Below, piece by piece: positions 531 to 58,947 of a stretch of DNA of 64,000 nt. Below the pieces are notes generated by a model. That model was not told the DNA's origin. It did no database searches and worked only from the letters and a program-made list of their open reading frames with translations. Source of the DNA: Thermomonas aquatica (GTDB taxonomy: Bacteria; Pseudomonadota; Gammaproteobacteria; Xanthomonadales; Xanthomonadaceae); the NCBI RefSeq assembly GCF_006337105.1, contig NZ_CP040871.1:1922001-1986000 (forward strand), read 5' to 3'. Each line of letters starts with the position of its first letter. Within the stretch, counting starts at the first letter, position 1. The position numbers and the translations under genes were made by a program.

Positions 531-1364
531 ATGGAGAACACCGTCACATCCCCGGCGTTGGCGCCCGACCGCATCGCCGTGGTCATCCCGGCCCTGAACG
601 AGGCATTGCGCATCCGCGAGGTGGTCGAAGGCGCGTTGCGGCATTGCCCGAACGTGATCCTGGTCGACGACGGATCGGACGACGGCACCGCCGAAGCGGT
701 GGCCGACCTGCCGGTCACCGTGCTCCGCCACCCCAGCCGGATGGGCAAGGGCGCCGGCCTGCGCGACGGTTTCGCCGAAGCGCTGCGGCAGGGTTTCGAC
801 GCCGTGGTGGCGATGGACGGCGACGGCCAGCACAGCGGCGACGACATCCCGCGCCTGCTCGCCGCCGCCAACCGCTACCCCGGCTGGATCGTGATCGGCG
901 CACGCCTGCGCAAGCGCGCCAACCAGCCCACCTACCGCCGGCTGGCGAACCAGTTCGGCGACTGGGGCATCGCCTGGGGCACCGGCTACCAGGTCGCCGA
1001 CAGCCAGAGCGGGCAGCGCCTGTACCCGGCCGCGGTCTGCCGGCTGGGTTGCAGCGGCATCCCGGGCGAGGATTTCGTGTTCGAGGCGCAGATCGTGATG
1101 TCCGCCGCGCAGCAACTGGGCACGCGTTGCGTGTCGGTGCCGATCGAGGCGCGCTACAACCAGGTCCACGGCGCGCCCGATTTCCGCCCCAGCCATTTCC
1201 GCCCGCTGCGCGACCTGTGGCGGATCACCAGCCATATCGTCCTGCAGTGCGTGCGCCGCGGCGGTCTGTGGCAGGTGCACAGGCGCGCGCGCGCCAATCC
1301 GCCGGTGATCGACGACCCGTCCGGCGAATTCGCCGCCGCCTCGCCGCTGGCGCAGCCACGCTGA
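531..1364 (+). CDS. Family 2 glycosyltransferase (dolichyl-phosphate-mannose synthase-like)
   Basis: A 277-residue GT-A fold enzyme that should transfer a sugar from a nucleotide-sugar donor, probably to a lipid carrier or polyene. The N-terminal Rossmann-like part contains AVVIPALNEA, VDDGSDDGT and the metal-binding DGDGQH (DxD type). No C-terminal membrane helices are evident, so it is probably cytosolic or peripheral. Start 531 is preferred over the in-frame ATG at 468 because the family motif begins shortly after it and a -10-like box lies directly upstream. It precedes xanB2 by 40 bp on the same strand. GT2 enzymes occur in aryl-polyene and xanthomonadin loci, so a pigment role is possible but inferred only from this neighbour. 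Confidence 0.85.
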   Translation: MENTVTSPALAPDRIAVVIPALNEALRIREVVEGALRHCPNVILVDDGSDDGTAEAVADLPVTVLRHPSRMGKGAGLRDGFAEALRQGFDAVVAMDGDGQHSGDDIPRLLAAANRYPGWIVIGARLRKRANQPTYRRLANQFGDWGIAWGTGYQVADSQSGQRLYPAAVCRLGCSGIPGEDFVFEAQIVMSAAQQLGTRCVSVPIEARYNQVHGAPDFRPSHFRPLRDLWRITSHIVLQCVRRGGLWQVHRRARANPPVIDDPSGEFAAASPLAQPR

Positions 1365-1404
1365 GCCGGTCGCCCGCGGGCCGCGCGTTATCATCCGCGC
1401 CCCG

Positions 1405-2400
1405 ATGCCTGCCATGACCGACACCGCCCCACGCCCCGCCGCTTTGCGCGTCGAATACCGGTGCGATCCGCTGGACGCGCTGCTGGCCGATCCGAGGTTG
1501 CTCGCCGTGTTCGGCTTCGGCGATGCGGCAGCTGCCATCCATGCCGATCCGCGCTACCTGCATGTCGCCCTGCAAGCCCATGGCGATGCGCCGTTCGAGT
1601 GCTGGTTCGTGGCCGGTGACGTGCAATGCGGGCGCGATGCGGGCATTGCCTGGAGCGCGGATGGCCTGCTGCAGTTCGGCGCGCTGGAAATCGACGAGCA
1701 GGGAGACATCGAATCCGCCGCCGCCGCCGCGTATGCGCGCCTGCAAGCCTGGCTGGCGCGCGGCGACTATCCGCACCCGCTGCGGATCTGGAACTACATG
1801 GATGCGATCACCGAGGGCGAGGGCGATGACGAGCGCTATCGCCGTTTCTGCGTGGGTCGCGCGCGCGGCATCGGCCGCGAACTGGCGCCGGGCGAACTGC
1901 CGGCCGCCACCGCGATCGGTCATCCGCGGCGCAGCAGCCGCTTCCAGCTGTACTGGCTGGCGGCGCGCGATGCCGGCATCCCGCTGGAGAATCCGCGCCA
2001 GACCCAGGCCTGGCGCTACCCGCGCCAATACGGTCCACAGGCGCCGGGCTTCGCCCGCGCCATGCTGCCGGCGGATGCCGGCATGCCGCTGCTGCTGTCG
2101 GGTACCGCCGCGGTGGTCGGGCATGCCTCGCAGCACGGCGATTCGCCGGCGGCGCAACTGGACGAGACCCTGGCCAACCTCGACAGTCTGGTCGCCACCG
2201 CGCGCGCGCGCCGCCCCGCGCTGGCGACGCACTTCGGCGCCGACTCGCGCCTGAAGGTCTACGTGCGCGATGCCGCCGCATTGCCGCAGGTCGCCGCGTT
2301 GCTCGAGGCACGCCTGCCGGCGGCGGTGCCGCGGATCGTCCTGCACGGGCAGGTCTGCCGGCGCGAGCTCGCGGTGGAGATCGACGGCACCCACGCCTGA
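1405..2400 (+). CDS. xanB2: XanB2-type bifunctional chorismatase (3-/4-hydroxybenzoate synthase)
   Basis: The 331-residue protein matches the FkbO/Hyg5/XanB2 chorismatase family in length and in the C-terminal block PLLLSGTAAVVGHASQHGD, preceded by RFQLYWLAARDAGIP and the GPQAPGFARA segment. In Xanthomonas, XanB2 hydrolyses chorismate to 3-hydroxybenzoate (for xanthomonadin) and 4-hydroxybenzoate (for ubiquinone). The C-terminal half has the RidA-like fold of the family. Start: ATG 1405, or ATG 1414 three codons later. It lies 40 bp after the GT2 gene and may be co-transcribed, although TATCAT sits 10 nt before the start. The rest of a xanthomonadin cluster is not visible here. ubiJ/ubiB later in the window are plausible downstream users of its 4-hydroxybenzoate. 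Confidence 0.85.
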   Translation: MPAMTDTAPRPAALRVEYRCDPLDALLADPRLLAVFGFGDAAAAIHADPRYLHVALQAHGDAPFECWFVAGDVQCGRDAGIAWSADGLLQFGALEIDEQGDIESAAAAAYARLQAWLARGDYPHPLRIWNYMDAITEGEGDDERYRRFCVGRARGIGRELAPGELPAATAIGHPRRSSRFQLYWLAARDAGIPLENPRQTQAWRYPRQYGPQAPGFARAMLPADAGMPLLLSGTAAVVGHASQHGDSPAAQLDETLANLDSLVATARARRPALATHFGADSRLKVYVRDAAALPQVAALLEARLPAAVPRIVLHGQVCRRELAVEIDGTHA

Positions 2401-2857
2401 GCCACGGACTCGCCGCGACCGGGCGGCAGGCGCATGCCGCGCGTGGCGGGGAAGCGAACGAGGGCGATCGGCGTGGGTTTCGTCGCCTTGGCCTGATGGT
2501 GCCGGCGCCGCTCCCGGCCATTCCTGCATCGCCAAGCCAACGGCTGCTGGCCCCGCCGCTGCCGGAGCCTCGTCCTCGTCACGGCGGGCACATCATCTCG
2601 ACCGCGCCAGCCGGCCGCCTCCCAACGGCAACCTGATCGCGGCGGCGGCGCTGCGCTCTGCCTGGCATGCCTGGTTCAAACCGTTCACGATCCGCAACAG
2701 TGGATATGCCCATTCAGCCTTGTGGACATGTTGTGAAACCGCGACGGTCATTGCACACTCGCCCCGTCAGGGGGGAACTCTGGCAAAACGTGAAAACCAC
2801 GCTTGACGGGACATCCCCGCTCCAAGCCCGTTGCTACAAGCAGAGGACATTCCAGAA
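2401..2857. other. 457-bp intergenic region
   Basis: I see no convincing gene. Open frames here have no start context and a composition typical of GC-rich shadow frames. The 3' half is less GC-rich and should carry the promoter of the secreted-protein gene at 2858. TTGACG occurs near 2803, but no well-spaced -10 follows. A weak hairpin (GCGGCA...TGCCGC) near 2423-2440 could end xanB2 transcription. Confidence 0.4.
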
Positions 2858-3265
2858 ATGAAAGCCACGACCCTGATCGTGCTGGGCGGATTGTTGTTCG
2901 CCGGCACGTCGCTTGCCGCGGAACCGCAGCAGGTCCAGAACACCGACAACAACTTGACCGCCGACAGCGGCATGAAGGTTGGTATTGATCCCAAGACCGG
3001 CAAGCTGCGTCGCCTGACTGCGGCGGAAAGCGCCAATTTGGATGTCCTCACCGCCAAGAACCGGAAGGCAGCCGCCGCAATGGCGAAGGGCAAGGTCGCC
3101 GCCAAGGAAGGCGTAACCACCGAAATCGTCAACGGCCGTTACATCACCTATCTGCCCGAGTCTGAAATGATCGAAATCCACGCGACCATCGGCGCCGATG
3201 GCAAGGTTATCGTCAGCCACGATGGCCAGCCCCTGCAGGGTGCCGTGGAGGCCGCGAATGAATAA
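2858..3265 (+). CDS. Small secreted protein of unknown function
   Basis: 135 residues. It starts at ATG 2858, just before a clear signal peptide (MKATTLIVLGGLLFAGTSLA, cleavage near Ala-Glu). The mature part is charged and has no cysteine. It contains a GMKVGIDPKTGKLRRLTAAE block resembling the short DP-TG-LR-PT-E motif found in secreted Xanthomonadaceae proteins annotated 'post-PEP-CTERM-1'; that match is from memory and uncertain. The stop overlaps the start of the metalloprotease gene by 8 bp, so the two are translationally coupled. A partner, inhibitor or chaperone role for the protease is possible but is inference. Confidence 0.75.
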   Translation: MKATTLIVLGGLLFAGTSLAAEPQQVQNTDNNLTADSGMKVGIDPKTGKLRRLTAAESANLDVLTAKNRKAAAAMAKGKVAAKEGVTTEIVNGRYITYLPESEMIEIHATIGADGKVIVSHDGQPLQGAVEAANE

Positions 3266-4934
3266 GCGCCTTCTCGCGCCCGCGCTGGCCATTTCGCTCT
3301 CCTGTGGCATTGCCCAGGCCGCCGACCTGCAATTGTTCAATGCAGATCCCGCAAACGTCGGCCTCAACGATCCCACCCCCGCTGCACCGGTTGGTGGCAA
3401 CACCGGCACCACCATCGGGGCGCAGCGCCAGTTCGTTTATCGTCATGCGCTGAGCACATGGGGCAGCGTCCTGGGCAGCAATGCACCTGTGGTCGTGTCG
3501 GCAAAATTTGCGCCCTTGACCTGCACCGCGACGTCCGCAGTGCTTGGCTCCGCCGGTGCGAATTGGGTGTCGCCGCTCGACTACAACTTGCCTACCGGCA
3601 CCGCCGCCGATCCCTGGCGCCCCGGTGCGCTGGTCAACGCCCTTTACGGCAGCGAGCAGAACCCAGGCGCCCCTGCGATCAACTCGCAGTTCAATGGCGC
3701 CCTGGGCGCCGCGAACTGCCTCGCTGGCTCGGGCTGGTACTACGGTCTGGACGGCAATACCCCGGCGGGCAAGATCAATTTCCTCAATGTGGTGATGCAC
3801 GAAATTGCCCATGGACTTGGAGCCGCTGGATTCCTCAACAAGACGACTGGCGCCTTGTTCCTCGGCGGCCCGGACGTCTATTCGGCGAAGGCCCGCGACA
3901 ACATCACGGGCATGCTGTTCAGCGATCCGACCATGACCAACACCCAGCGCGCCATCGCGATGAGAACCAATGGCGCCACCGTGTGGACCGGTGCCAATGT
4001 CAATCAGCAGGCGGCGCTGTTGCTGGACTCGAACTACCAGAATGCCCTTGCGTTGCATGTGTCTGCGCCTGCGGCGATGGCGCGCGATTACGGCTTCTAC
4101 ACCGCCAGCTTCGGTCCCGCCCCGACTCCTGCCAATTTCAATGGGCAATGGGTGCTTGCCACCGATGTGGTCGAACCGGCCGTTCCGCCCGGATTGCCCG
4201 GGACAACAACGGATGGCTGCTCGCCGTTCACCAATGCCGCTGCCATCGCGGGCAAGATCGCAATGGTCGACCGCGGGTATTGCGGCTTCGCCGTCAAGGT
4301 GAAGAATGCGCAGCTCGCTGGCGCCACCGCTGTGGTCGTGCTGAACAGCGCAAGCACTTGGGGCGCCATGGGTGGCACCGATCCGACCATCACCATCCCC
4401 TCGGTGATCGTGCAGCAAGTCGACGGCATCGCATTCAAAGCCAACGCCCCGATCACCGGCGGCATGGTGTTGGGCCCGGTCACTCTGGCCGGCATGGATA
4501 CCAACGGCCGCACCCGCCTCTACTCGCCTTGGGTGGTCGCCCCGGGCTCGACCTTCTCGCACTTCGACACTGTGTTGCACCCGGATGCGCTGATGGAACC
4601 GTTCGATTCGCCGGAAGTCCAGGCCCAGCTTACGCTCGATCTGACCCCGGCGCTGCTGCGCGACATCGGCTGGCCGATGAACAATGGCAATACCAAGCTG
4701 TTCAACGGCATATGCGATACCGGCGTGCCGGCCGCCGCCGATGGCGGCATCGCTATCGGCGCCAACATCGCCGGCGCCGACGCCACCTGCAAGATCGGTG
4801 CGACCCGCACGACGTACTACAGCTGCATGAACGCCTATGCGAGCAAGCTGTACACGGATGGGCTGATCAACGGCACCCAGAAGAGCAAGATCCAGACCTG
4901 CGCCCGCCGCACGTCGGACAACTGGGGTCGCTGA
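3258..4934 (+). CDS. Secreted zinc metalloprotease-like protein with PA domain
   Basis: 558 residues with an N-terminal signal peptide (cleavage after ...GIAQA). The zinc motif HEIAHGLGAAGF is at residues 181-192. It gives two His ligands and the catalytic Glu, but has Phe where metzincins usually place the third ligand. A protease-associated (PA) domain interrupts the catalytic part at about residues 330-400 (GKIAMVDRGYCGFAVKVKNA). Further on, SHFDTVLHPDALMEP resembles the Met-turn region. Cysteine pairs in the C-terminal ~80 residues suggest disulfides in the periplasm or outside the cell. It overlaps the upstream small secreted protein by 8 bp and is followed by a strong terminator, so the two form a two-gene operon. 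Confidence 0.8.
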   Translation: MNKRLLAPALAISLSCGIAQAADLQLFNADPANVGLNDPTPAAPVGGNTGTTIGAQRQFVYRHALSTWGSVLGSNAPVVVSAKFAPLTCTATSAVLGSAGANWVSPLDYNLPTGTAADPWRPGALVNALYGSEQNPGAPAINSQFNGALGAANCLAGSGWYYGLDGNTPAGKINFLNVVMHEIAHGLGAAGFLNKTTGALFLGGPDVYSAKARDNITGMLFSDPTMTNTQRAIAMRTNGATVWTGANVNQQAALLLDSNYQNALALHVSAPAAMARDYGFYTASFGPAPTPANFNGQWVLATDVVEPAVPPGLPGTTTDGCSPFTNAAAIAGKIAMVDRGYCGFAVKVKNAQLAGATAVVVLNSASTWGAMGGTDPTITIPSVIVQQVDGIAFKANAPITGGMVLGPVTLAGMDTNGRTRLYSPWVVAPGSTFSHFDTVLHPDALMEPFDSPEVQAQLTLDLTPALLRDIGWPMNNGNTKLFNGICDTGVPAAADGGIAIGANIAGADATCKIGATRTTYYSCMNAYASKLYTDGLINGTQKSKIQTCARRTSDNWGR

Positions 4935-4956
4935 TCCCGGACGACCGCGCAACACC

Positions 4957-4986
4957 AACCGGCGCCGCAAGGCGCCGGTTTTTTTT
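4957..4986 (+). terminator. Rho-independent terminator after the metalloprotease gene
   Basis: A 10-bp perfect stem (AACCGGCGCC / GGCGCCGGTT) with a GCAA loop, followed by a run of six further T. It ends 22 bp before the hemB start codon, so hemB must have its own promoter in the remaining gap. Confidence 0.92.
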
Positions 4987-4995
4987 GCGCAGGGG

Positions 4996-6000
<1,005 letters not shown>

Positions 6001-6025
6001 CGCCACGCCACCAAGGGGAATCGCG

Positions 6026-6871
6026 ATGCGCAAGCACTACGCCGTGTTCGGAACGCCGATTTCCCATTCGCTGTCGCCGCGCATCCATGCCGCGTTCGCC
6101 GGGCAGTCCGGCATCGACCTCGATTACGTCGCGATCGAGGCCGGGGCGGACGATTTCCGCGCGAAACTCGAGGCGTTCGCCGCCGCCGGCGGCAGCGGCG
6201 CCAATATCACCCTGCCGCTGAAGGAAGCCGCATTCGCGCTGTGCCGCGACAGCAGCGAGCGCGCCGTCCGCGCCGGCGCGGTGAACACCGTGATCCGCAA
6301 TGAAGACGGCAGCTGGCGCGGCGACAACACCGACGGCGCCGGCCTGGTGCGCGACCTCACCGAACGCCACGGCCTGGACCTGCGGGCGCGGCGGACCCTG
6401 CTGCTCGGGGCCGGCGGCGCCGCGCGCGGGGTGGCGCCGGCGCTGCTGGATGCCGGCATCGGCGAGCTGACCGTGGTCAACCGCACCCCGCAACGCGCGG
6501 ACGCGCTGGCCGATGCGCTGGGCGAACCCGGCCGCGTGCATCCGCGCTATTTCGGCGACATCGCCGCGTTCGGCGAATTCGACCTGATCGTCAATGCCAC
6601 CTCGGCGGCGCGCGGCGGCGGCCTGCCTGGCCTGCCGCGCGCGCTGGTCGGCCGCCGCACCGCCGCGGTCGACCTGAGTTACGGCGAGGCGGCGATCCCG
6701 TTCCTGGCCTGGGCACGCGCCAACGGCTGCCACGACGCGGTGGACGGACTCGGCATGCTGGTCGAGCAGGCGGCGGAAAGTTTCGCGCTCTGGCACGGGG
6801 TGCGGCCGGACACGGATGCCGTGTTCGCTGCGCTCAGCGGCCGCGCGGCGGCCCTGGTGACCGCGGACTAG
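6026..6871 (+). CDS. aroE: Shikimate dehydrogenase (NADP+)
   Basis: 281 residues, normal family length. It reduces 3-dehydroshikimate to shikimate with NADPH in the shikimate pathway that supplies chorismate (the substrate of XanB2). The substrate pocket motif [11 protein letters not shown] is near the N-terminus; the catalytic Lys/Asp context is [11 protein letters not shown] and DNTDGAGL. The nucleotide-binding loop is [10 protein letters not shown], followed by NRTPQRA. Start 6026 has AAGGGG upstream, and longer in-frame extensions into hemB lack family sequence. Its TAG stop lies inside a CTAG shared with the convergent carbonic anhydrase gene. Confidence 0.96.
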
Positions 6872-7416
6872 GCGCCCAGGTACTGGTCCTTCAGCCGCAC
6901 GTAGTGCCCGGCGCTGTAATACAGCGCCTCGATCTCGGCATCCGACAGCATCCGCACCTTCTTCGCCGGATTGCCCAGCCACAGCTCGCCTTCGCCGACC
7001 ACCTTGCCCGGCGCGACCAGCGCACCCGCGCCGACGAAGCCGTGCTTCCTCACCACCGCGCCGTCCAGCACGATCGCGCCCATCCCGATCAGCACCGCGT
7101 CCTCGATCCGGCAGGCGTGGATGACCGCCTTGTGGCCGATGGTCACGTCCTCGCCGATCACGGTGGCGAAGCCGCCCAGCTTGGCGTGCGGGCCATCATG
7201 GCTGACGTGCACCACGGTGCCGTCCTGGATGTTGGTGCGCGCGCCGACGCGGATGAAGTTGACGTCGCCACGCACGATCGTGCCTGGCCAGATCGAGGCA
7301 TCGTCGCCCAGCACCACGTCGCCGATCACGGTCGCCGCGGGATCGACATAGGCGCGCACGCCGAGGGTGGGAAAGCGGTCGAGGTAGGGGCGCAGGGCGG
7401 ACGTTTTCGCGGTCAT
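6868..7416 (-). CDS. Gamma-class carbonic anhydrase family protein (YrdA-like hexapeptide repeat)
   Basis: 182 residues forming a left-handed beta-helix of hexapeptide repeats. The gamma-carbonic-anhydrase signature is present: [18 protein letters not shown], then the zinc-ligand histidines in VVHVSHDG and [11 protein letters not shown]. Members bind zinc or iron and hydrate CO2 or are inactive structural homologues; activity is not predictable here. Start ATG 7416 has TAGAAT five bases upstream and no Shine-Dalgarno sequence. It is divergent from the aldehyde dehydrogenase gene (39-bp gap) and convergent with aroE, sharing the four bases CTAG. Confidence 0.92.
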
Positions 7417-7455
7417 GGCCCATTCTAGCCGCGCGGCCCGACTACACTGCCGCGC
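7417..7455. promoter_or_regulatory. Compact divergent promoter region, carbonic anhydrase / aldehyde dehydrogenase
   Basis: Only 39 bp separate the two start codons. On the minus strand TAGAAT (7427-7422) is 5 nt from ATG 7416. On the plus strand TACACT (7443-7448) is 7 nt from ATG 7456. Both mRNAs are therefore likely to be leaderless or nearly so. Confidence 0.5.
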
Positions 7456-8856
7456 ATGGACACCGCCATCAGCGAACTCGCCCCGACCCTGGCCCGCCTG
7501 CGCACCGCCTGGCAGGCGCGCAAGCCCGATTACCAGCAGCGCCGCAACGACCTGCAACGCCTGCGCGACGCGCTCAAGCGGCGGCTGGACGAAATGGGCA
7601 AGGCGATTTCCGCCGACTTCGGCCATCGCTCGCCGCACGAATCGCGCATCGCCGACGGCATGACCGTGCTCAACGAGATCGACCACCTGCGCAAGCACCT
7701 GCGTGGCTGGATGAAGCCGCGCAGGGTCGGCGTGGGCTGGCGCTTCCTGCCGGCGCGCGCGGAGACGCGCGCGGAGCCGGTCGGCGTGGTCGGGGTGATC
7801 GCGCCGTGGAACTACCCGGTCAACCTGGCGCTGATCCCGCTGGCCACCGCGATCGCGGCCGGCAACCACGTCTACCTCAAGCCGTCCGAGCACACGCCGC
7901 ACACCAGCGCCTTCCTGCGCAGCCTGCTGGCCGAGGTCTTCCCGGCCGAGCGGGTGGCGGTGGCCGAAGGCGGCGCCGAGGTCGCCGCCGCCTTCGCCGC
8001 CTTGCCGCTCGACCACCTGGTGTTCACCGGCTCCACCGAGGTGGGGCGCAAGGTGATGGCCGCGGCCGCGCCGAACCTGACCCCGGTGACGCTGGAACTC
8101 GGCGGCAAGTCGCCGGCGATCGTCTGCGAGGACTATCCGGTCGAGCAGGCCGCCGCACGCATCGCCACCGGCAAGTGGTTCAACGGCGGGCAGACCTGCA
8201 TCGCCCCCGACTACGTGCTGCTGCCCAAGGGCAAGCGCGACGATTTCGTCAAGGCGCTGCGCAAGGAAGTGCAGGCCCGCTACGGCGAGAACCTGGAGAA
8301 CCTCGGCGACTACACCCGCATCATCAACGACGGCCAGTACGCGCGGCTGAAAGGCCACCTGGACGACGCCAAGGCGCGCGGCATCGAGAAAGTGACCCTG
8401 GCCGGGCATGCCGACCCGGCGCAGCGCCTGCTGCCGCCGACCCTGCTGCTGGAGCCGGGCGACGACGCCACGGTGATGCAGGACGAGATCTTCGGGCCGC
8501 TGCTGCCGATCCGCAGCTACAAGTCGCTGGACGAGGCGATCGCCTACGTCAACGGGCGCGACCGGCCGCTGGCCTTGTATCCCTTCAGCAACGACAGGGC
8601 GACGGTCGAGAAGATCCTGCGCAGCACGCTGGCGGGCGGGGTGTCGGTCAACGACACCCTGTTCCACTTCGCGGTCAGCGGCCTGCCGTTCGGCGGCATC
8701 GGCCCCAGCGGGATGGGCGCCTACCACGGCCGCGCCGGCTTCGACGCGACCAGCAAGCAGCTGCCGATCCTGTGGCAGGCGCGCCGCACCGGTGCGGACC
8801 TGCTGAAGCCGCCGTACAGGGAGGCGCAGTGGCTGATCGACCTGATCGTGCGCTGA
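7456..8856 (+). CDS. NAD(P)-dependent aldehyde dehydrogenase (coniferyl-aldehyde dehydrogenase type)
   Basis: 466 residues. It oxidises aldehydes to carboxylic acids. ALDH landmarks in order: PWNYPVNL, KPSEHTPHT, FTGSTEVG, the general-base region LELGGKSPAIV, the catalytic Cys in FNGGQTCIAPDY, and EIFGPLLPI. The C-terminal GPSGMGAYHG and hydrophobic tail are typical of the class 3/coniferyl-aldehyde subgroup. The substrate is inferred from the subgroup only and could be fatty or aromatic aldehydes. xthA follows after 8 bp and is probably co-transcribed. Confidence 0.92.
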   Translation: MDTAISELAPTLARLRTAWQARKPDYQQRRNDLQRLRDALKRRLDEMGKAISADFGHRSPHESRIADGMTVLNEIDHLRKHLRGWMKPRRVGVGWRFLPARAETRAEPVGVVGVIAPWNYPVNLALIPLATAIAAGNHVYLKPSEHTPHTSAFLRSLLAEVFPAERVAVAEGGAEVAAAFAALPLDHLVFTGSTEVGRKVMAAAAPNLTPVTLELGGKSPAIVCEDYPVEQAAARIATGKWFNGGQTCIAPDYVLLPKGKRDDFVKALRKEVQARYGENLENLGDYTRIINDGQYARLKGHLDDAKARGIEKVTLAGHADPAQRLLPPTLLLEPGDDATVMQDEIFGPLLPIRSYKSLDEAIAYVNGRDRPLALYPFSNDRATVEKILRSTLAGGVSVNDTLFHFAVSGLPFGGIGPSGMGAYHGRAGFDATSKQLPILWQARRTGADLLKPPYREAQWLIDLIVR

Positions 8857-8864
8857 GGTCGCCC

Positions 8865-9638
8865 ATGAAGATCGCCAGCTGGAACGTCAATTCGCTCAAT
8901 GTGCGCCTGCCGCACCTGCAACGCTGGCTGGACGAGGCGAAGCCGGACGTGGTCGCGCTGCAGGAAACCAAGCAGGAAGACCACAAGTTCCCCGAGGACG
9001 CGCTGCTCGAGCTCGGCTACCGCAGCATGTTCTGCGGGCAGAAGACCTACAACGGCGTCGCCATCGTCAGCCGCCTGCCGTTCGCCGGCGAATGCGTGAC
9101 CGCGATCCCGGGCTTCGAGGATCCGCAGAAGCGCGTGCTGGCGGCGACCGTGGGCGATCTGCGCATCGTCGACCTGTACGTCGTGAACGGCGAGGCGGTG
9201 GGCAGCGAGAAGTTCGACTACAAGCTGCGCTGGCTGGCGGCGGTGCGCGAATGGCTGCGCGAGGAAATCGCCGCGCACCCGAACCTGGTCGTGCTCGGCG
9301 ATTTCAACATCGCCCCCGACGACCGCGACGTGTTCGATCCCAAGCGCTGGCGCGAGAAGATCCTGTGCTCGACGCCGGAGCGCGAGGCCTATCGTTCCTT
9401 GCTGGACCTGGGCCTGCACGACAGCTTCCGCCTGTTCAACGACGAGGCCGGCCACCACAGCTGGTGGGACTACCGCCTGTCCGGCTTCGAGCGCGGCTGG
9501 GGCCTGCGCATCGACCTGGTGCTGGTCAGCGAGGCGCTGAAGGCGCGTTGCACCGGCGCCGGCATCGACCGCGAACCGCGCGGCTGGGAACGCCCGAGCG
9601 ACCACACCCCGGTGTTCGTCGAGATCGCCGACGCCTGA
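8865..9638 (+). CDS. xthA: Exodeoxyribonuclease III
   Basis: 257 residues. It is an AP endonuclease and 3'-5' exonuclease of base-excision repair. The exonuclease III metal and catalytic motifs are intact: N-terminal WNVNSLNVR, LQETK, GDFNIAPDDRDV, and SDHTPV near the C-terminus. The start is ATG 8865, eight bases after the aldehyde dehydrogenase stop, preceded by GAGGT. A GC-rich hairpin follows at 9673. Confidence 0.96.
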   Translation: MKIASWNVNSLNVRLPHLQRWLDEAKPDVVALQETKQEDHKFPEDALLELGYRSMFCGQKTYNGVAIVSRLPFAGECVTAIPGFEDPQKRVLAATVGDLRIVDLYVVNGEAVGSEKFDYKLRWLAAVREWLREEIAAHPNLVVLGDFNIAPDDRDVFDPKRWREKILCSTPEREAYRSLLDLGLHDSFRLFNDEAGHHSWWDYRLSGFERGWGLRIDLVLVSEALKARCTGAGIDREPRGWERPSDHTPVFVEIADA

Positions 9639-9672
9639 TCTCCCGGCGGAACCTCCCGGCGGACGTAAAACA

Positions 9673-9694
9673 GAGGCCCGGCGAACCGGGCCTC
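9673..9694 (-). terminator. Hairpin terminator for the GlsB-like gene, possibly bidirectional
   Basis: A 9-bp perfect stem (GAGGCCCGG / CCGGGCCTC) with a CGAA loop. Read on the minus strand it is followed by TGTTTTA, giving a U-tract for the 9737-9985 gene. On the plus strand there is no T-run, but it may still attenuate xthA. Confidence 0.7.
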
Positions 9695-9736
9695 GTCACT
9701 TCCCTGTGATCTGAACGCCGTTGCCCGGCGCGCGGC

Positions 9737-9985
9737 TCAGCGCACGCGGCCGCGCCGGAACAGGTTGACGATGGCGAGCAGGATGACCGCACCGATGAAC
9801 GCGGACACATAGCCCATGAAGCCCGCGCCGCCGATCATCGGGGCGATGAACTGGCCGCCGATCCAGGAGCCGATGATGCCGACCACCACGTTGAGGATGA
9901 TGCCCTGCTGGCCGTCGGTCTTCATGACCAGACTGGCCAGCCAGCCGATGATGCCGCCGATGATCAACCAAATGATCAAGCCCAT
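9737..9985 (-). CDS. GlsB/YeaQ/YmgE family stress-response membrane protein
   Basis: 82 residues, almost entirely three hydrophobic, glycine-rich segments (LIIWLIIGGIIGWLASLVM, then VVGIIGSWIGGQ, then AFIGAVILLAIVNLF). This is the 'transglycosylase-associated' family, small inner-membrane proteins linked to general stress, with no demonstrated enzymatic activity. The start is at 9985, where AAGGAG sits 6 bases upstream; an in-frame ATG 8 codons earlier lacks such a site. It is monocistronic, with a terminator hairpin at 9673. Confidence 0.9.
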   Translation of the reverse strand: MGLIIWLIIGGIIGWLASLVMKTDGQQGIILNVVVGIIGSWIGGQFIAPMIGGAGFMGYVSAFIGAVILLAIVNLFRRGRVR

Positions 9986-52019: not shown

Positions 52020-55000
52020 TTACAGCGGCTTGCCGCCGAACTTGTAGGTGAGCTGCACGTAATAGCTGCGGCCCATGCTGTCGAACCAGGCGGTGTCGTA
52101 GTACGGGTAGCTTTCCCAGGTCGCGTCCTTCGGCGGCATCTTGTCGAGCAGGTTGTTGACGGTCAGCGACACCCGGAAGTGGTCGTTGATGTCGTAGCGC
52201 GCGCTGCCGTTGAAGCGCCAGCTGGCCGGCGTCCACGCATCGTTGGCCCAGTTGGGCACGCGGCCGACGTAGTTGCCGAACAGGCTGGCGGCCCATGCCT
52301 CCTTCTCCCAGCTCGCGCCCAGGTTGCCCTTGACGCGCGGGATGGTGGCATCGGCGAAGCCGACGTCCAGCATGTCTTCGCTCGGGTCGCCCTGGCGCAG
52401 TTGCCGGTCGTGCCTGCGCACCCAGGTGTAGCTGCCGCTGAAGCGGAAATCGCCGGCGGCGGCGGTTTGCAGGCGGTAGTTGGCGGTGACGTCGACGCCC
52501 GAGGTCTTTTCGCTGGCGATGTTCATCGGCCCGAACAGCACGCTGGTGATGTCGCCATCGGCATCGCGGATCACCCGCGCCTTCATTTCGACGCACGTGG
52601 GCGAATTGCCATCGACCGTTTTTCCGTCGTCGGTCACGCCCAGGCGGCAATCGGCTTCGGTGGCGCGGATCCATTCGCGGTCCAGCACCTGCACCTGGTT
52701 CTTCACCTCGATCGCGTAGTAGTCCACCGCCAGGTCGAAGTTCGCGCTGGGCGACCACACGAAGCCGCCGGTGAACGACTTGCTGGTCTCCACGTCCAGC
52801 GCCATGTTGCCGGTGTAGACGTCGCGGGTGTTGATGTCCCAGGTGCCGTCGTTGTAGCAATCGTCGTCGCTGAAGCCCGCCGCGTCGGGGTCGGTGCGGC
52901 ACTGGTAGTAGTCGGTGGAGATCTTGCGGTAGTAGTCGGTGCCGGCGAACAGGTAGTGCATGTCCGGCGCGCGGAAGCCGGTGCCGTAGGAGCTGCGCAC
53001 CAGCAGGGTGTCAAGCGGACGCCATTCCAGGCCCAGGCTGTAGGTGAACTTGCCCGGGTTGCTGCTGCCGTAGCTGTAGCGGTCGTAACGGCCGGCCAGG
53101 CTCGCCTGCAGGCTGGACAGCAGCGGCATGCGCAACTCGCCGGCCGCGCTCCAGTGGTCGCGGTCGCCGCGGCCGTCGCCGTAGCGCGGGCCGAAGTAGG
53201 CGCTGTCGGTCAGCGCCAGCGGATCGGGATTGATGCGGTAGGACTGCCGGCCGTATTCGATCGCGCCGGCGAAGCCGACATCGCCCGCCGGCAGGGTGAA
53301 CAGCGAGGTGGTGTCGGCGGTGAAGCTGAGGTTGTCGTTCTCGGCCTTGGGATGCCAGACCGACATCGTCGAGATCGACGCGAACTGCTCGGGCGTCAGC
53401 GGGGTGAACAGGCGCGCGTAATTCGGGTTGTAGATCGCGTAGCCGTCCTCGTCGTAGCCCAGGCGCGGGCCGAGGAAGAACGCGTTGGCGGCCGCGGCCA
53501 GGATGCGCGGCATCTTCACCTCGGCCTTGTACTGCGAATGGTTGTAGGCCGCTTCCCAGTTCCAGTCCTCGCCGAAGCCGCCCTTGAAGCCGGTGGTCAG
53601 CGCGAAGGTCTTCTCGGTGGTGGTGTTCATGCGGTTCTTCAGGCCGCCCACTTCCTCCGGGGTGAACTGCCGCTGCCACAGTTCGTAACGGCCGATGCCC
53701 TCGTTGTAGAAGATGCTGTCATCGACGTCGGTCGAGTTCGGGTCGTAGAACGCCCAGCCCATGTGGTCGCTGGCGATGTTGCCCCAGCTCGAGGTCAGGA
53801 TGTTGCCGTTGGTGCCGGTCAGCAGCTCCACTTTCTGGTGGCCGATCTGGGTATCGGCGAACCACGACAGGTCGTCGTTGATGCGGAACTCGAACGAGCC
53901 GTAGGCGGTGGCGCCCTTGCGGCCGTTGGTGATGGTGCGATAGGCGATCGCGCGGTCGCTGCCGCAATAGGCGCGGCCGCGGGTGTCCGTGGCCAGCACC
54001 GTGGTGCCTTCGTTGAGGCCGGCCATCGCCGCGCAGCCGTCGGTCGGCGCGGTGCGGTTGCTCTGCGCGATCATGCGCGGCAACCGGCGGCGCGCGGTGG
54101 GTGCGTCGAGGGTCGAATCCTGGATCTCGCGGTCGGTGCCCCACAGCGGATCCTTGTCGATCAGCTCCAGGCCGACGATGCCGCTGAAATCGCCGCGTTC
54201 GAAGCCGCCGGTCAGGTTCAGGTTGTGGGAGGCGCCGCCGCCGCGCTCGGTATCGCCGTAGCGATAGTCGATGGTGATGCCGTCCGTGGATTTCTTCAGG
54301 ATGAAGTTGATCACGCCGGCCATCGCGTCCGATCCGTACACCGCCGAGGCGCTGCCGGTGAGGATTTCCACGCGGTCGATCATCCCCAGCGGGATGTTGC
54401 CGATGTCGGTGAAGTTGCTGCGGCTGTTGAGCGGCAGCGGGAAGTCGGCGACGCGGCGGCCGTTGACCAGCACCAGGGTGTGGTTGGGCCCGAGGCCGCG
54501 CAGGTCGACCGCCTGCGCGCCCGGGGTGGACTGCGCGTTGGTGGTGTTCTGCTGGCCGTAGGTGTAGCCGTTGTTCTGGCTGAGCGACTTCAGCACGTCG
54601 GGCACGCTGGTGAGGCCGGCGGCCTTGATGTTCTCGGCGGTGACGATGGTGATCGGCGCCGGGCCTTCCACCTGCGCGCGCGGGATGCGCGAGCCGGTGA
54701 CCTGCACGGTTTCGATGTCGGTGATTGGTGCGTCGGTCGCGGCCTGCGGCGTGGACTGCTGCGCGGCGCGCGGCCGGGCCGGCGCGGGCCTGGCCGGGGC
54801 CTGGGCCGCCTGCGGCACCACCAGCACCGCGCCGGAGTCGTCCCGCTGCGCATGGAAACCGCTGCCCTTGAGCAGCGCGTCGAGCGCCTGCGGCGATGCG
54901 GTCTGCCCCTGCACGCCGGCGCTGCGCGCGCCCTTCAACTGGTCGGCGCGATACACCAGCTGGGTGCCGGACTGGCGGGCATAGGTCTCCAGCGCGGTGG

Positions 55001-55109
55001 CGAGGTCGCCGGCGGGAACGTCGACGCGGCCGCCCTGCGCCTGCGCGGCGAGTGCGGCGGAACAGGCCAGGGACAGCAACAGGACGCGCAGCGGACGGGA
55101 CGGCTTCAT
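52020..55109 (-). CDS. TonB-dependent receptor with N-terminal STN signalling domain
   Basis: 1029 residues. The signal peptide (cleaved near ALAAQAQ) is followed by an STN domain (~28-80, VPAGDLATALETYARQSGTQLVY), an Ala/Pro-rich linker, a TonB-box-like segment and the plug (VTGSRIPRAQVEGPAPITIVTAENI to AVYGSDAMAGVINFILKK, ~135-265). The 22-strand barrel ends in a C-terminal Leu rather than the usual aromatic (TYKFGGKPL). The STN domain and the upstream FecR and sigma genes indicate a FecA-type receptor that takes up a ligand and signals its presence. The substrate is unknown; the neighbouring cyanophycinase fusion suggests peptides. Confidence 0.93.
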   Translation of the reverse strand: MKPSRPLRVLLLSLACSAALAAQAQGGRVDVPAGDLATALETYARQSGTQLVYRADQLKGARSAGVQGQTASPQALDALLKGSGFHAQRDDSGAVLVVPQAAQAPARPAPARPRAAQQSTPQAATDAPITDIETVQVTGSRIPRAQVEGPAPITIVTAENIKAAGLTSVPDVLKSLSQNNGYTYGQQNTTNAQSTPGAQAVDLRGLGPNHTLVLVNGRRVADFPLPLNSRSNFTDIGNIPLGMIDRVEILTGSASAVYGSDAMAGVINFILKKSTDGITIDYRYGDTERGGGASHNLNLTGGFERGDFSGIVGLELIDKDPLWGTDREIQDSTLDAPTARRRLPRMIAQSNRTAPTDGCAAMAGLNEGTTVLATDTRGRAYCGSDRAIAYRTITNGRKGATAYGSFEFRINDDLSWFADTQIGHQKVELLTGTNGNILTSSWGNIASDHMGWAFYDPNSTDVDDSIFYNEGIGRYELWQRQFTPEEVGGLKNRMNTTTEKTFALTTGFKGGFGEDWNWEAAYNHSQYKAEVKMPRILAAAANAFFLGPRLGYDEDGYAIYNPNYARLFTPLTPEQFASISTMSVWHPKAENDNLSFTADTTSLFTLPAGDVGFAGAIEYGRQSYRINPDPLALTDSAYFGPRYGDGRGDRDHWSAAGELRMPLLSSLQASLAGRYDRYSYGSSNPGKFTYSLGLEWRPLDTLLVRSSYGTGFRAPDMHYLFAGTDYYRKISTDYYQCRTDPDAAGFSDDDCYNDGTWDINTRDVYTGNMALDVETSKSFTGGFVWSPSANFDLAVDYYAIEVKNQVQVLDREWIRATEADCRLGVTDDGKTVDGNSPTCVEMKARVIRDADGDITSVLFGPMNIASEKTSGVDVTANYRLQTAAAGDFRFSGSYTWVRRHDRQLRQGDPSEDMLDVGFADATIPRVKGNLGASWEKEAWAASLFGNYVGRVPNWANDAWTPASWRFNGSARYDINDHFRVSLTVNNLLDKMPPKDATWESYPYYDTAWFDSMGRSYYVQLTYKFGGKPL

Positions 55110-55194
55110 GCAAATTCCCCCAAGGCGCTCGATGCGGCGCCGTTACAGCTTCATGACGAACGAACCCGGCAAATCCCCCGCTGCCGCGGACGCC

Positions 55195-56259
55195 CTACCG
55201 CGAATGCAGGACGATGCGCGAGGCGTCGTACTCGGCGCGCAGCGGGAAGCCGCGCTCGAGCAGGCGGGCGAAGCCCTCGGCATTGTCCCAGCGGAAGCTG
55301 CCGCCGACCCGCAGCGCGCCGGCCGCGGGGTCGGCGACCACCAGCTTGCGCGCGTTGAAGCGGTTGAACTCGACCACCGCCTCGGCCAGCGTGGTATCGC
55401 GGAACGCCAGCGTGCCGTCGCGCCAATCCAGCATGCCCTCGGCATCGGCGATCGGCAGGCTGCGCACCAGCACGTCGCCGCCGCGCGCCAGCGCGATGCT
55501 GCCGGCGGGCAGCAGCGCCATCGGTTGCGGGCCTCGCCCGGTGCGCGTCGTCTCCAGCCGCACCGTGCCTTCGGTCACCACCACGCGCAGGTCGTTGCCG
55601 TCGCGGCGCACCGAGAAACGCGTGCCGACCGCGATCACCTGGCGATTGCCGGTGTCGACCACGAACGGACGCGTCGCGTCCTTCGCCACCTCGAAGATCG
55701 CCTCGCCGCGGCGCAGTTCGACCAGCCGCCGGTGGCGCGACAGTTGCACGTCGATGCGGCTGTCGCTGGACAGCACCGCGCGCGAGCCGTCCGCCAGCGG
55801 TGCGGCCTGCACCTGGCCCAGCGCGGCCTGGTAGCTGGCGGTGTCGACATGGGTATAGGTGCGCCAGCCCCAGCCGGCGAACAAGGCGCAGGCGGCGATC
55901 GACAGCACCGCGAACGCGGTCGCCGCCAGCGAACGCCCCACCGGGGGGCGCGGTGCGAGCTTCAGGTCGCGCAGGTCCGGTGCCAGCGCGATCGATGCGG
56001 CGCCCTGGGCTTGCGCGGGTTGCGCCCAATGCCCGCGCGGCGGCGGCCCCGGCTGTTTCCAGCCCGCGCCCAAGGCCTGCAAGCGTCCGCTTTCGTCCCA
56101 GGCCGCCTGCAGGCGCAGGAATGCGATGCGATGCGCGGTGTCCGCGTCCAGCCAGTCCGCGAGCGCGGCGTGATCGGCCTGCGACCACGCGCTGCCGTCG
56201 CGGCGTGCCAGCCAGTCGGCCGCGGTGTGCTCGATTTCAGTCCGCGTGCTGGCGTTCAT
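55195..56259 (-). CDS. FecR-family anti-sigma regulator
   Basis: 354 residues. The N-terminal cytosolic FecR_N domain (EHTAADWLARRDG, DWLDADTAHRIAFLRLQAAW) is followed by one membrane helix (~110-132) and a periplasmic FecR domain (VELRRGEAIFEVAKDATRPFVVDTGNRQVIAVGTRFSV). A second domain follows (TLAEAVVEFNRFNARKLVVAD). It should transmit the receptor signal to the sigma factor. It overlaps the sigma gene by 23 bp and ends 85 bp before the receptor start. Confidence 0.93.
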   Translation of the reverse strand: MNASTRTEIEHTAADWLARRDGSAWSQADHAALADWLDADTAHRIAFLRLQAAWDESGRLQALGAGWKQPGPPPRGHWAQPAQAQGAASIALAPDLRDLKLAPRPPVGRSLAATAFAVLSIAACALFAGWGWRTYTHVDTASYQAALGQVQAAPLADGSRAVLSSDSRIDVQLSRHRRLVELRRGEAIFEVAKDATRPFVVDTGNRQVIAVGTRFSVRRDGNDLRVVVTEGTVRLETTRTGRGPQPMALLPAGSIALARGGDVLVRSLPIADAEGMLDWRDGTLAFRDTTLAEAVVEFNRFNARKLVVADPAAGALRVGGSFRWDNAEGFARLLERGFPLRAEYDASRIVLHSR

Positions 56260-56812
56260 CGTCGTCTTTCGCGGGCACGGAGTGGGCATCGCGGGCCATG
56301 CCATCGCCGCCATAGAGGCGGTCGGCGAGCAGGCGCATGCCCTTGGCGAGGTGCTTTTCCACGGTTTTTTCGCTGATGCCCATGCGCATGGCCACGTCCT
56401 TTTGCGACAGTTCCTCGACGCGGCGCAGCCATACCGCCTCGCGGCAGCGATCCGGCAGGCCATCGAAGGCGTCGGCCAGCCGGTGCAGCAATTGCCGCCC
56501 GCCGCACCAGCGTTCCGGCGACACGTCATCCACCAAGACGTGCGAAGGCTCGAAATCACCCATCGGCTCGATCGAGACCACCCGTGCGCGGCGCGCGCGA
56601 TCGGCCATCAGGTTGCGCGCGGCGGCGAACAGGAACGCCTTCGGCTGCGCGGGGAATCCCTTCGCCGCGGCTTCGTAGACCCGCGCATAGATGTCCTGGC
56701 GCAGGTCCTGCGCTTCCTCGCGGTGCGGCCAGCTGCGCAGCAGGTAGCGCAGCAGGGCTTCCTCGTGGACGAGGATTTCCTCGGCGAACCACCTGTCCAG
56801 CGGCGAATGCAT
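56237..56812 (-). CDS. ECF sigma factor (FecI-like)
   Basis: 191 residues. Sigma region 2 (EEAQDLRQDIYARVYEAAA, FLFAAARNLMADRARR) and region 4 (LPDRCREAVWLRRVEELSQKDVAMRMGISEKTVEKHL) are present, with no region 3. It directs RNA polymerase to the receptor operon in response to FecR. The start is ATG 56812; an upstream in-frame ATG at 56875 would add a proline-rich stretch not seen in the family. It lies 110 bp from the divergent cyanophycinase fusion gene. Confidence 0.92.
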   Translation of the reverse strand: MHSPLDRWFAEEILVHEEALLRYLLRSWPHREEAQDLRQDIYARVYEAAAKGFPAQPKAFLFAAARNLMADRARRARVVSIEPMGDFEPSHVLVDDVSPERWCGGRQLLHRLADAFDGLPDRCREAVWLRRVEELSQKDVAMRMGISEKTVEKHLAKGMRLLADRLYGGDGMARDAHSVPAKDDDERQHAD

Positions 56813-56922
56813 CGGGCGAAGATAGCCGAAAGCGGAGGCGATCCGGCAACCCGGCGGGGGAAATGCCTTCGCCATTCGTCATATCGAGTGGAATGCCGAT
56901 GGCCGATCGAACGAGGATGACG

Positions 56923-58860
56923 ATGAAGCGACGCGCGTACTGGTCGATGCTGCTGGTGGCCGCGATGGGGATTGCATCCACGGCTGCGATGGCGGCCGAT
57001 ACCGGCCATTACCTGCTGGGCGACACCGCGGCGAAGACCCCGGGCAAGCCCGCGCCGGGCCTGCTGCTGATGGGCGGCGGCGACCGCAACTTCGATGCGC
57101 TGCGCTGGTTCATGAAGAAGGCCGGCAACGGCCACATCGTGGTGCTGCGCGCCTCGCAGGCGGGCGAGATCGGCGAGGAGTTCTTCAACGAAGTCGGCGG
57201 CATCCAGTCGGTCGAGACCTTCGTGTTCAACGACCGCGAAGCCGCCAGCGACCCGAAGGTCCTGGCCGCGCTCAAGCGCGCCGACGGCATCTTCATCGCC
57301 GGCGGCGACCAGTCGCGCTACGTGCGCTACTGGCGCGGCACGCCGGTGGCCGCGGCGCTGGACGCGCACGTGCGCGCCGGCAAGCCGCTCGGCGGTACCA
57401 GCGCCGGCCTGGCCATGCTCGGCGACTACCTGTACGGGGCGATGGACGGCGGCAGCCAGATCAGCCCGCGCGCGCTGGCCGATCCGCTGGGCGCGGAGAA
57501 CACCATCGAAACCGATTTCCTGCACCTCGCCCTGCTCAAGGGCGTGGTCACCGATACCCATTTCAGCGAGCGCAACCGGTTGGGCCGGTTGATCGCCTTC
57601 GTCGCCAAGGCCGAATCGATGGCGGGCAAGCCGCTGATCGGTTTGGGCGTCGACGAAGACGCCGCGGTCGCGGTGGAAGGCGACGGCACGGCGCGCGTGT
57701 ACGCGACCTCGCCGATGGCGGGCGCGACGGTGGTGCGCGGCGGTTTCGCAAAGCAGGTCGAAGACGAGGCCATGCAACTCGACCGAGTGGACACCGTTGG
57801 TGCCGGCCCGGATTCCGTCCTGCATCTGCCGGATGGACGCGTCGAGCGGCCGGTGTTCCAGCGCCACTATGCGGTGCGCGATGGCGTGCTGACCGCGCTG
57901 GACGCGCCACTGCTGGTGATCCATGGCGGTGCCGGCGTGGAGCCGGGCGACTTGAGCAAGGACGAGGAAGCCGCGGCGCGCGCTGCGCTGGAAGCCGCCT
58001 TGCGCGCCGGCCATGCGAAGCTGCAATCGGGCGGCTCGTCGGTGGATGCGGTGGCAGCCACGATCACCGTGCTGGAGGACGCGCCGCAGTTCAACGCCGG
58101 CCGTGGCGCGGTGTTCACCCACGACGGCCGCAACGAGCTCGACACCTCGCTCATGGACGGCGCCACCGGCAAGGCCGGCGCGGCGGCGGGCCTGTATCGG
58201 GTCAAGAACCCGATCACCCTGGCGCGGGCGATCATGGACAAGTCCAAGCACGTGATGATGGTCGGCGACGGCGCGGAGATGTTCGCCAAAGAACAGGGCA
58301 TCGCGCTGGTCGATCCCGCGTACTTCCGCACCGAGAAGCGCTGGCGGCAGTTGCAGAAGGCGCTGGCGGAAGAGAAGAACGCGCAGGCAGCGAACACGCC
58401 GCTGGTGCTGCCGGGCAAGGCCTACTTCGGCACCGTCGGCGCGTTGGCGCTGGATGCGCAGGGACGCCTGGCCGCGGGCACCTCCACCGGCGGCATGACC
58501 AACAAGCGCTACGGCCGCGTCGGCGATTCGCCGATCATCGGCGCCGGCACCTGGGCCGATCAGCGTTGCGCGGTGTCCGGCACCGGCTGGGGCGAGTTCT
58601 ACATCCGCGATGCCGCCGCGCACGAGATCTGCGCGCGGGTACGTCTGGCCGGGCAGAGCATCGACCGCGCCTCCGATGGCGTGATCAACCGCGACATCCC
58701 CAAGGCCGGCGGCGACGGCGGCGCGATCGCGCTGGATGCGCAGGGCGTGGCCGCGTTCCCGTTCAACACCGGCGGCATGTATCGCGGCTGGATCGGCGCC
58801 GACGGCGTGCCGCACGTGGCGATCTACAAGACCGATACGTTGCCGCTGCCGGCGTACTGA
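56923..58860 (+). CDS. Secreted cyanophycinase / isoaspartyl peptidase (L-asparaginase) fusion
   Basis: 645 residues. The signal peptide is MKRRAYWSMLLVAAMGIAST (cleavage near AMA-AD). Residues ~30-325 form an S51 cyanophycinase-like domain: LLMGGGDRN, FIAGGDQSRYV, and the nucleophile Ser160 in GGTSAGLA. Residues ~329-645 form an Ntn-hydrolase isoaspartyl peptidase: IHGGAGV, SVDAVAATITVLEDAPQFNAGRGAVF, autocleavage at GTVGALAL with Thr504 as nucleophile, and TSTGGMTNKRYGRVGDSPIIGAG. Together they could cut cyanophycin to beta-Asp-Arg and then to Asp and Arg. Start 56923 has GAGG six bases upstream; upstream in-frame ATGs lack it. Confidence 0.9.
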   Translation: MKRRAYWSMLLVAAMGIASTAAMAADTGHYLLGDTAAKTPGKPAPGLLLMGGGDRNFDALRWFMKKAGNGHIVVLRASQAGEIGEEFFNEVGGIQSVETFVFNDREAASDPKVLAALKRADGIFIAGGDQSRYVRYWRGTPVAAALDAHVRAGKPLGGTSAGLAMLGDYLYGAMDGGSQISPRALADPLGAENTIETDFLHLALLKGVVTDTHFSERNRLGRLIAFVAKAESMAGKPLIGLGVDEDAAVAVEGDGTARVYATSPMAGATVVRGGFAKQVEDEAMQLDRVDTVGAGPDSVLHLPDGRVERPVFQRHYAVRDGVLTALDAPLLVIHGGAGVEPGDLSKDEEAAARAALEAALRAGHAKLQSGGSSVDAVAATITVLEDAPQFNAGRGAVFTHDGRNELDTSLMDGATGKAGAAAGLYRVKNPITLARAIMDKSKHVMMVGDGAEMFAKEQGIALVDPAYFRTEKRWRQLQKALAEEKNAQAANTPLVLPGKAYFGTVGALALDAQGRLAAGTSTGGMTNKRYGRVGDSPIIGAGTWADQRCAVSGTGWGEFYIRDAAAHEICARVRLAGQSIDRASDGVINRDIPKAGGDGGAIALDAQGVAAFPFNTGGMYRGWIGADGVPHVAIYKTDTLPLPAY

Positions 58861-58876
58861 GCACGTACTCGGCGGG

Positions 58877-58947
58877 AAAGGCGGGTCAGAGTCGAGTTTC
58901 GTTTACGAAACTCGACTCTGACCCGCCTTTTTCTGACCCGCCTTTTT
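58877..58947. repeat. 26-bp perfect inverted repeat with duplicated tail (REP-like) between convergent genes
   Basis: Arms 58877-58902 and 58905-58930 are exact complements around a TT loop; the left arm reads AAAGGCGGGTCAGAGTCGAG and continues TTTCGT. The right end TCTGACCCGCCTTTTT is repeated once more at 58932-58947. The GGGTCAGAGTC core resembles palindromes common in Xanthomonadaceae genomes. With its T-rich ends it can also work as a bidirectional terminator between the fusion gene and the LysR gene, whose stop lies 3 bp away. Confidence 0.85.

Follow-up and report, generated by a model that had tools for sequence, protein, structure and literature searches.

A fused cyanophycinase-like and isoaspartyl peptidase protein encoded in a putative inducible TonB receptor locus of Thermomonas aquatica

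Architecture of the locus

The 64,000-nucleotide stretch of Thermomonas aquatica DNA analysed here (contig NZ_CP040871.1, positions 1,922,001 to 1,986,000; hereafter the window) carries a gene for a 645-residue fusion protein (Table 1). A signal peptide, an S51 (cyanophycinase-like) domain, a short linker and a complete N-terminal nucleophile (Ntn) isoaspartyl peptidase domain follow each other in a single frame, as a preliminary description of the window had proposed. The S51 domain scores 44.1 bits against Pfam PF03575, above the gathering score of 23.9, and the Ntn domain scores 357.9 bits against PF01112, over the gathering score and covering profile positions 1 to 309 of 309; against the NCBIfam isoaspartyl-peptidase equivalog the second domain reaches 285.7, under the cut-off of 567. 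The solved folds nearest to the S51 part are cyanophycinases, with 24-28% identity to three cyanophycinase chains, and the structure model predicts a cyanophycinase fold for this domain. In the model, residues 498-500, shortly before Thr504, have a predicted local distance difference test (pLDDT) score below 50, which is compatible with autocleavage.

Upstream of the fusion gene and divergent from it are genes for an extracytoplasmic function (ECF) sigma factor, matched in both region 2 and region 4, a FecR regulator (66.0 bits) and a TonB-dependent receptor with an STN domain (40.1 bits). As neighbours, these three constitute a Fec-type gene set. The whole genome contains a single FecR match, against 17 plug domains over the cut-off. 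The sigma factor probably starts at 56812, since the alignment to most homologues begins only near residue 20.

Table 1. Features of the fusion locus and of the genome's own cyanophycin cluster. Positions are those of the window unless another locus is named.
Feature	Position	Strand	Remarks
Fusion gene	56923..58860	+	Signal peptide, S51 (cyanophycinase-like) and Ntn isoaspartyl peptidase; 645 aa
Sec-type signal peptide	56923..56994	+	Residues 1-24; predicted, cleavage after AMA judged by eye
S51 domain	57049..57852	+	Residues 43-310; Gln130, Ser160, His213, Arg217, Arg219, Arg222 and Glu245 invariant
Asparaginase_2 / isoaspartyl peptidase domain	57904..58827	+	Residues 328-635; nucleophile Thr504 after Gly503
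ECF-type promoter-like site	56856..56880	+	GGGGGAAATGCCTTCGCCATTCGTC; precedes fusion gene
Second copy of promoter-like site	55155..55179	-	GGGGGATTTGCCGGGTTCGTTCGTC; precedes receptor gene
ECF sigma-70 family factor	56237..56875	-	Probable later start, see text
FecR regulator	55195..56259	-	PF04773; sole FecR match of the genome
TonB-dependent receptor	52020..55109	-	N-terminal STN signalling domain, plug and barrel; 1029 aa
Likely terminator	58877..58945		Perfect 26-bp inverted repeat with T runs, between fusion gene and convergent LysR gene
Own cyanophycin cluster: IadA, CphB, CphA1	L023 (G000:C1:1315000-1327000), about 868-7513	-	

Conservation of the receptor and its regulators

The locus was compared with 80 named loci, the best 80 of 520 relatives, some of which come from the same genomes as a 149-genome family set. 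The receptor is present in 74 of them, twice as a fragment (L049 and L092), and the sigma factor and FecR in 66 each. In three receptor-free loci (L072, L075 and L096), the upstream sequence available is no longer than 1.1 kb. Sphingomonad loci retain a receptor, 45-47% identical, and no sigma or FecR match was seen in them. The 12 kb surrounding the CphB of the genome itself (L023) served as a control and gave no match to receptor, FecR or sigma factor.

All plausible open reading frames from 13 named loci were also run against all 80. The fusion recurred in 80, the receptor in 72-74 and FecR and sigma in 64-66, and the next gene in 27; the latter is a reading frame of 200-255 aa beyond the receptor (for example L027 2285-2908). 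Fec-type signalling frequently serves iron, and an STN receptor, FecR and ECF sigma factor are components of Fec-type iron systems, so the receptor might import a peptidic siderophore that the fusion hydrolyses. We regard this as very improbable. Beyond the four core genes no reading frame of the 13 sampled loci matches more than those 27 loci, so that no partner for handling iron is retained; the two enzymes come from aspartyl-bond families, and receptor-sigma sets of similar make serve non-iron substrates.

LysR and glyoxylate genes were considered as parts of the system and rejected, LysR and malate synthase being present in only 14 of the 80 loci. The 17-bp core of the terminator repeat has one further inverted pair in the genome (G000:C1:1504107-1504177).

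Promoter-like sites

The aligned divergent promoter regions share a conserved pair, GGGGGAA ... TTCGTC, and the same pair precedes the receptor gene. A search of the 3.0 Mb single-contig genome for GGGGGA-N13,14-TTCGTC gives two hits and no more, one ahead of the receptor gene and one ahead of the fusion gene, both in the form GGGGGA-N13-TTCGTC, and the reversed pattern has zero occurrences. It counts against a regulatory interpretation that the motif was derived from these same loci, so that the hit before the fusion arises by construction; the second hit and the absence elsewhere do not.

Counts were extended to the own locus together with the 80 named loci. Ahead of the enzyme gene, GGGA-N13-15-[TC]TCGTC is present in 55 of 67 loci that have the sigma gene, as against 2 of 14 that lack it; ahead of the receptor it is present in 52 of 65. 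With the stricter pattern GGGGA-N13-15-TTCGTC these counts become 41/67, 1/14 and 32/65, respectively. Means for these patterns were 0.01 to 0.16 in base shuffles, which preserve base content only and not dinucleotides. Among the 12 sigma-bearing loci that miss the motif, several have a closely similar one in which the spacer is shorter. A private switch for the receptor and the enzyme would be the simplest reading, since the sites occur nowhere else in the genome and are kept with the sigma gene, and a single FecR stands against 17 plug domains.

Distribution of the fusion

In a database search in which the 8000 candidates sharing most words were scored, the 120 relatives listed, of 1496, all contain both domains, Thermomonas and Pseudoxanthomonas among them; for the S51 part, 120 of 1278 relatives were listed. 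Within the family, where a search for the same fusion had been suggested, a fusion-spanning match was found in 32 of 149 genomes, the own one included, among the matches listed (five of these 32 rows have one stop within the matched stretch). A phylum sample of 299 genomes, which does not contain the sphingomonad copies seen among the named loci, yielded a close S51 relative (E ≤ 1e-30) in six, the own genome included, all from the same order. In 75 of the named loci a single reading frame of 636-665 aa encodes both domains, and in five, from sphingomonads, S51 is present with the second enzyme absent nearby. A full-length match at 60% identity lies on two Novosphingobium plasmids. Other fusions among the named loci also begin with hydrophobic leaders as inspected by eye, their starts having been picked by a rule that yields leaders of about 27 residues. 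The fusion is thus real, conserved and widespread rather than unique, and its two parts are individually ordinary.

Additional genomes beyond the named set provided 13 loci in which the two enzymes are adjacent separate genes. The receptor is present in 12 of these, and the remaining one (L109) ends at a contig end. A quick S51 tree was built from 98 distinct rows (80 fused, 13 split and 5 without the second enzyme), on which at least six changes between these states are required. L015, a divergent fused copy with a longer linker and a long branch on this tree, falls within the split group, where it clusters with the split copies L022 and L113 at a support of 100. Because of this nesting, two or more origins of the fusion, or a single loss followed by a regain, are most likely. 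In L119, L018 and L121, an S51-free orthologue of the second domain adjoins an M3 oligopeptidase gene, and the two are perhaps a separate peptide-digestion pair.

Active-site residues

In an alignment of 43 fusions, the seven S51 residues listed in Table 1 are identical in all sequences, as are Gly503, Thr504, Thr522, Arg532, Asp535, Thr554 and Gly555 of the second domain. The catalytic roles proposed earlier for Ser160 and Thr504 agree with this invariance, and His213 and Glu245, the S51 partners of Ser160 whose absence would have spoken against the assignment, are present in 43/43. Aligned to 3en0, the S51 set corresponds to CphB Gln101, Ser132, His174, Arg178, Arg180, Arg183 and Glu201, which we take to be CphB catalytic and substrate-site residues. 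Four of the five positions in the presumed substrate-site list of CphB (Gln101, Gln173, Arg178, Arg180 and Arg183) are retained.

Receptor exchange

At 60% linkage, the 77 receptors found at this slot form three groups of 40, 28 and 9. On a tree of 70 fusion proteins, 39 are accompanied by receptor type A, 26, including the own locus, by type B and five by the sphingomonad type C; A and B are about 50% identical. The three types require 9 changes on the fusion tree against a shuffled mean of 25.4, and well supported branches force at least seven changes for A and at least seven for B.

The difference is seen most clearly between Pseudoxanthomonas sp. PXM03 (L045), which has a type B receptor, and 3HH-4 (L029), which has type A; their DNA was compared in 150-base windows. 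Identity is 92-98% before the receptor end and 83-100% from the signalling part through the end of the fusion gene, and falls to 51-85% in the plug and barrel (L045 2851-5550). The segment just past the receptor gene (L045 2551-2850) is hardly alignable to L029, and the last window of the comparison is at 69%. The first 150 receptor residues, the STN part, are identical. With near-identical flanks around a diverged plug and barrel, the outer part of the receptor was exchanged while the part that would signal to FecR was kept. In a second pair, L034 and L037, the enzyme gene is 95% identical in DNA (7966-9791), as against 72% for sigma-FecR and 67% for the receptor, which marks a transfer of the enzyme gene by itself. 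By these comparisons the locus recombines by modules. Exchange of the plug and barrel over a constant enzyme offers a clean natural experiment on the drivers of receptor change.

The genome's own cyanophycin genes

The genome also has a complete intracellular cyanophycin pathway of its own, CphA1, CphB and IadA, in a cluster some 660 kb from the fusion. A second CphA-like gene beside CphA1 matches the Mur-ligase half only (324 bits), and about 30 rows across the family genomes are half-length CphA matches beside CphA1. In two same-genus genomes, where others have the half-length companion, two long genes of CphA type adjoin each other (1004 and 678-690 bits; G107:C39:14314-19043 and G051:C6:56620-61349). 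CphA1 over the cut-off is found in 15 of 32 fusion carriers and 18 of 117 others (Fisher p 0.0005, not kinship-corrected), the set including fragmented genomes with CphA pieces below the cut-off (G114, G135 and G142).

Proposed mechanism and substrate

We somewhat favour the view that the locus is inducible and self-contained and serves to utilise a peptide polymer with beta-aspartyl linkages, the likeliest candidates being the nitrogen-storage polymer cyanophycin and its soluble oligomers. Outside the cell, the substrate would be bound by the receptor, whose STN domain would signal via FecR to the ECF sigma factor; this factor would then activate the matching promoters of the receptor and fusion genes. 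The substrate would then be brought by the receptor into the periplasm, where the S51 domain (Ser160-His213-Glu245) would cleave backbone bonds to release beta-Asp-Arg dipeptides. The Ntn domain would cleave itself before Thr504 and split these dipeptides into Asp and Arg for uptake. The protein had been described as a self-contained scavenging enzyme, if active. Two-step beta-aspartyl degradation still fits best, and the enzyme does not stand alone, given the receptor, FecR, ECF sigma factor and matching promoters at its locus. These same elements make a receptor-fed periplasmic site likelier than free secretion, so that of the extracellular or periplasmic location suggested earlier, export agrees with the predicted signal and the periplasm is the more probable destination.

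Cyanophycin itself, the substrate put forward at the outset, is slightly favoured: the fold and the residues point to it, and its breakdown calls for the two activities that are paired here. The nearest metagenome-assembled genome, isolate Viby, presumably originates from an activated-sludge plant. Cyanophycin genes are termed ubiquitous in activated sludge in PMC10687191.

A number of observations weigh against this interpretation. Three loci (L093, L097 and L099) carry the fusion, had upstream room and show no receptor match. In a sequence comparison made with CphB rather than CphE, Gln173 is replaced by Thr (42/43) or Ser (1/43), and the N-terminal GGAEDK of CphB reads GGGDRN in the fusion. 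Against TIGR02069 (cut-off 126.6) the S51 part reaches 109.8 and the whole protein 107.8, which puts the fusion outside the curated cyanophycinase family; the genome's own CphB, as a control, reaches 263.8. The S51 domain is, as judged from its sequence, a group separate from the curated cyanophycinases, and the fusion may nevertheless act like a cyanophycinase. Of the 32 fusion carriers, 17 lack CphA1 over the cut-off. The 80 named loci, taken with up to 8 kb on each side, gave no match to CphA or IadA. For these reasons, and given the separate CphB and IadA, a role in the organism's own cyanophycin turnover is not favoured despite the co-occurrence. Finally, cyanophycin is described as an insoluble reserve in PMC7564069, which makes import of the whole polymer doubtful.

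Also to be weighed is PDB 7uqv, which is titled pseudo-CphB and has the same Ser/His/Glu/Arg pattern, so that the set of catalytic residues is no proof of cyanophycinase activity. With the low identity to the three cyanophycinase chains, this deposit would fit an S51 domain that is a binding or structural remnant beside an Ntn domain active by itself. Such a remnant is improbable, as Gln130, Ser160, His213 and Glu245 are invariant and as the sphingomonads L098, L100, L101 and L105 have S51 beside the receptor without the second enzyme, which argues that S51 has its own role.

The same locus and mechanism might instead serve other beta-aspartyl (isoaspartyl) peptides, such as aged-protein fragments or a beta-Asp-linked natural product. 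The score below the cyanophycinase cut-off and the replaced Gln173 point that way, as does a further observation against cyanophycin: among 21 loci selected for matching the second half of the fusion only, 12 have a second-domain orthologue without an S51 gene, three of them beside an M3 oligopeptidase. Isoaspartyl peptidases are moreover called promiscuous in PMC10206079. We consider this alternative possible and less likely than cyanophycin, since cyanophycinases are the solved structures closest in fold to the S51 part, Arg217, Arg219 and Arg222 are invariant at the positions of CphB Arg178, Arg180 and Arg183, and cyanophycin breakdown requires just such a partner enzyme, an isoaspartyl dipeptidase.

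Relation to known systems and significance

Relative to the S51 cyanophycinases CphB and CphE, the fusion adds a second enzyme in the same chain, export and a neighbouring TonB receptor; the plant-type isoaspartyl peptidases IaaA and EcAIII (PF01112) find their counterpart here in the C-terminal half of an exported fusion. Lasso-peptide isopeptidase loci likewise combine a TonB receptor, FecI/FecR and a dedicated isopeptidase and are inducible; their peptidase is of another family and they belong to a biosynthetic cluster. The present locus is reminiscent of them in joining an inducible receptor to a dedicated isopeptidase.

In Citromicrobium sp. JLT1363, a TonB receptor lies near a cyanophycinase gene, the same neighbourhood as at the fusion locus, and the account in PMC3400609 (2012) proposes cyanophycin as the receptor substrate from this context. 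The link between receptor and cyanophycinase is therefore not new in itself; the words asparaginase and isoaspartyl are absent from the main text of that paper. The words fusion and fused are absent from the main text of a bioinformatic survey of cyanophycin genes (PMC10206079), and no description of the fusion was found in the literature searched, where most subscription papers lay outside reach. The new aspect is the one-chain enzyme pair inside an inducible receptor locus. Tentatively, this might be the first TonB-dependent locus to be recognised as serving the use of a storage polypeptide, with a sensing receptor, a private FecR/ECF switch, a one-chain, two-step periplasmic hydrolase that takes cyanophycin all the way to amino acids, and an exchangeable plug and barrel cassette on a fixed signalling domain.

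If this is true, cyanophycin or like peptides would be taken up much as complex sugars are, through a sensed receptor and periplasmic digestion. A single enzyme would then suffice to turn cyanophycin into free arginine and aspartate, and the fusion might serve as a genomic marker for finding cyanophycin scavengers.
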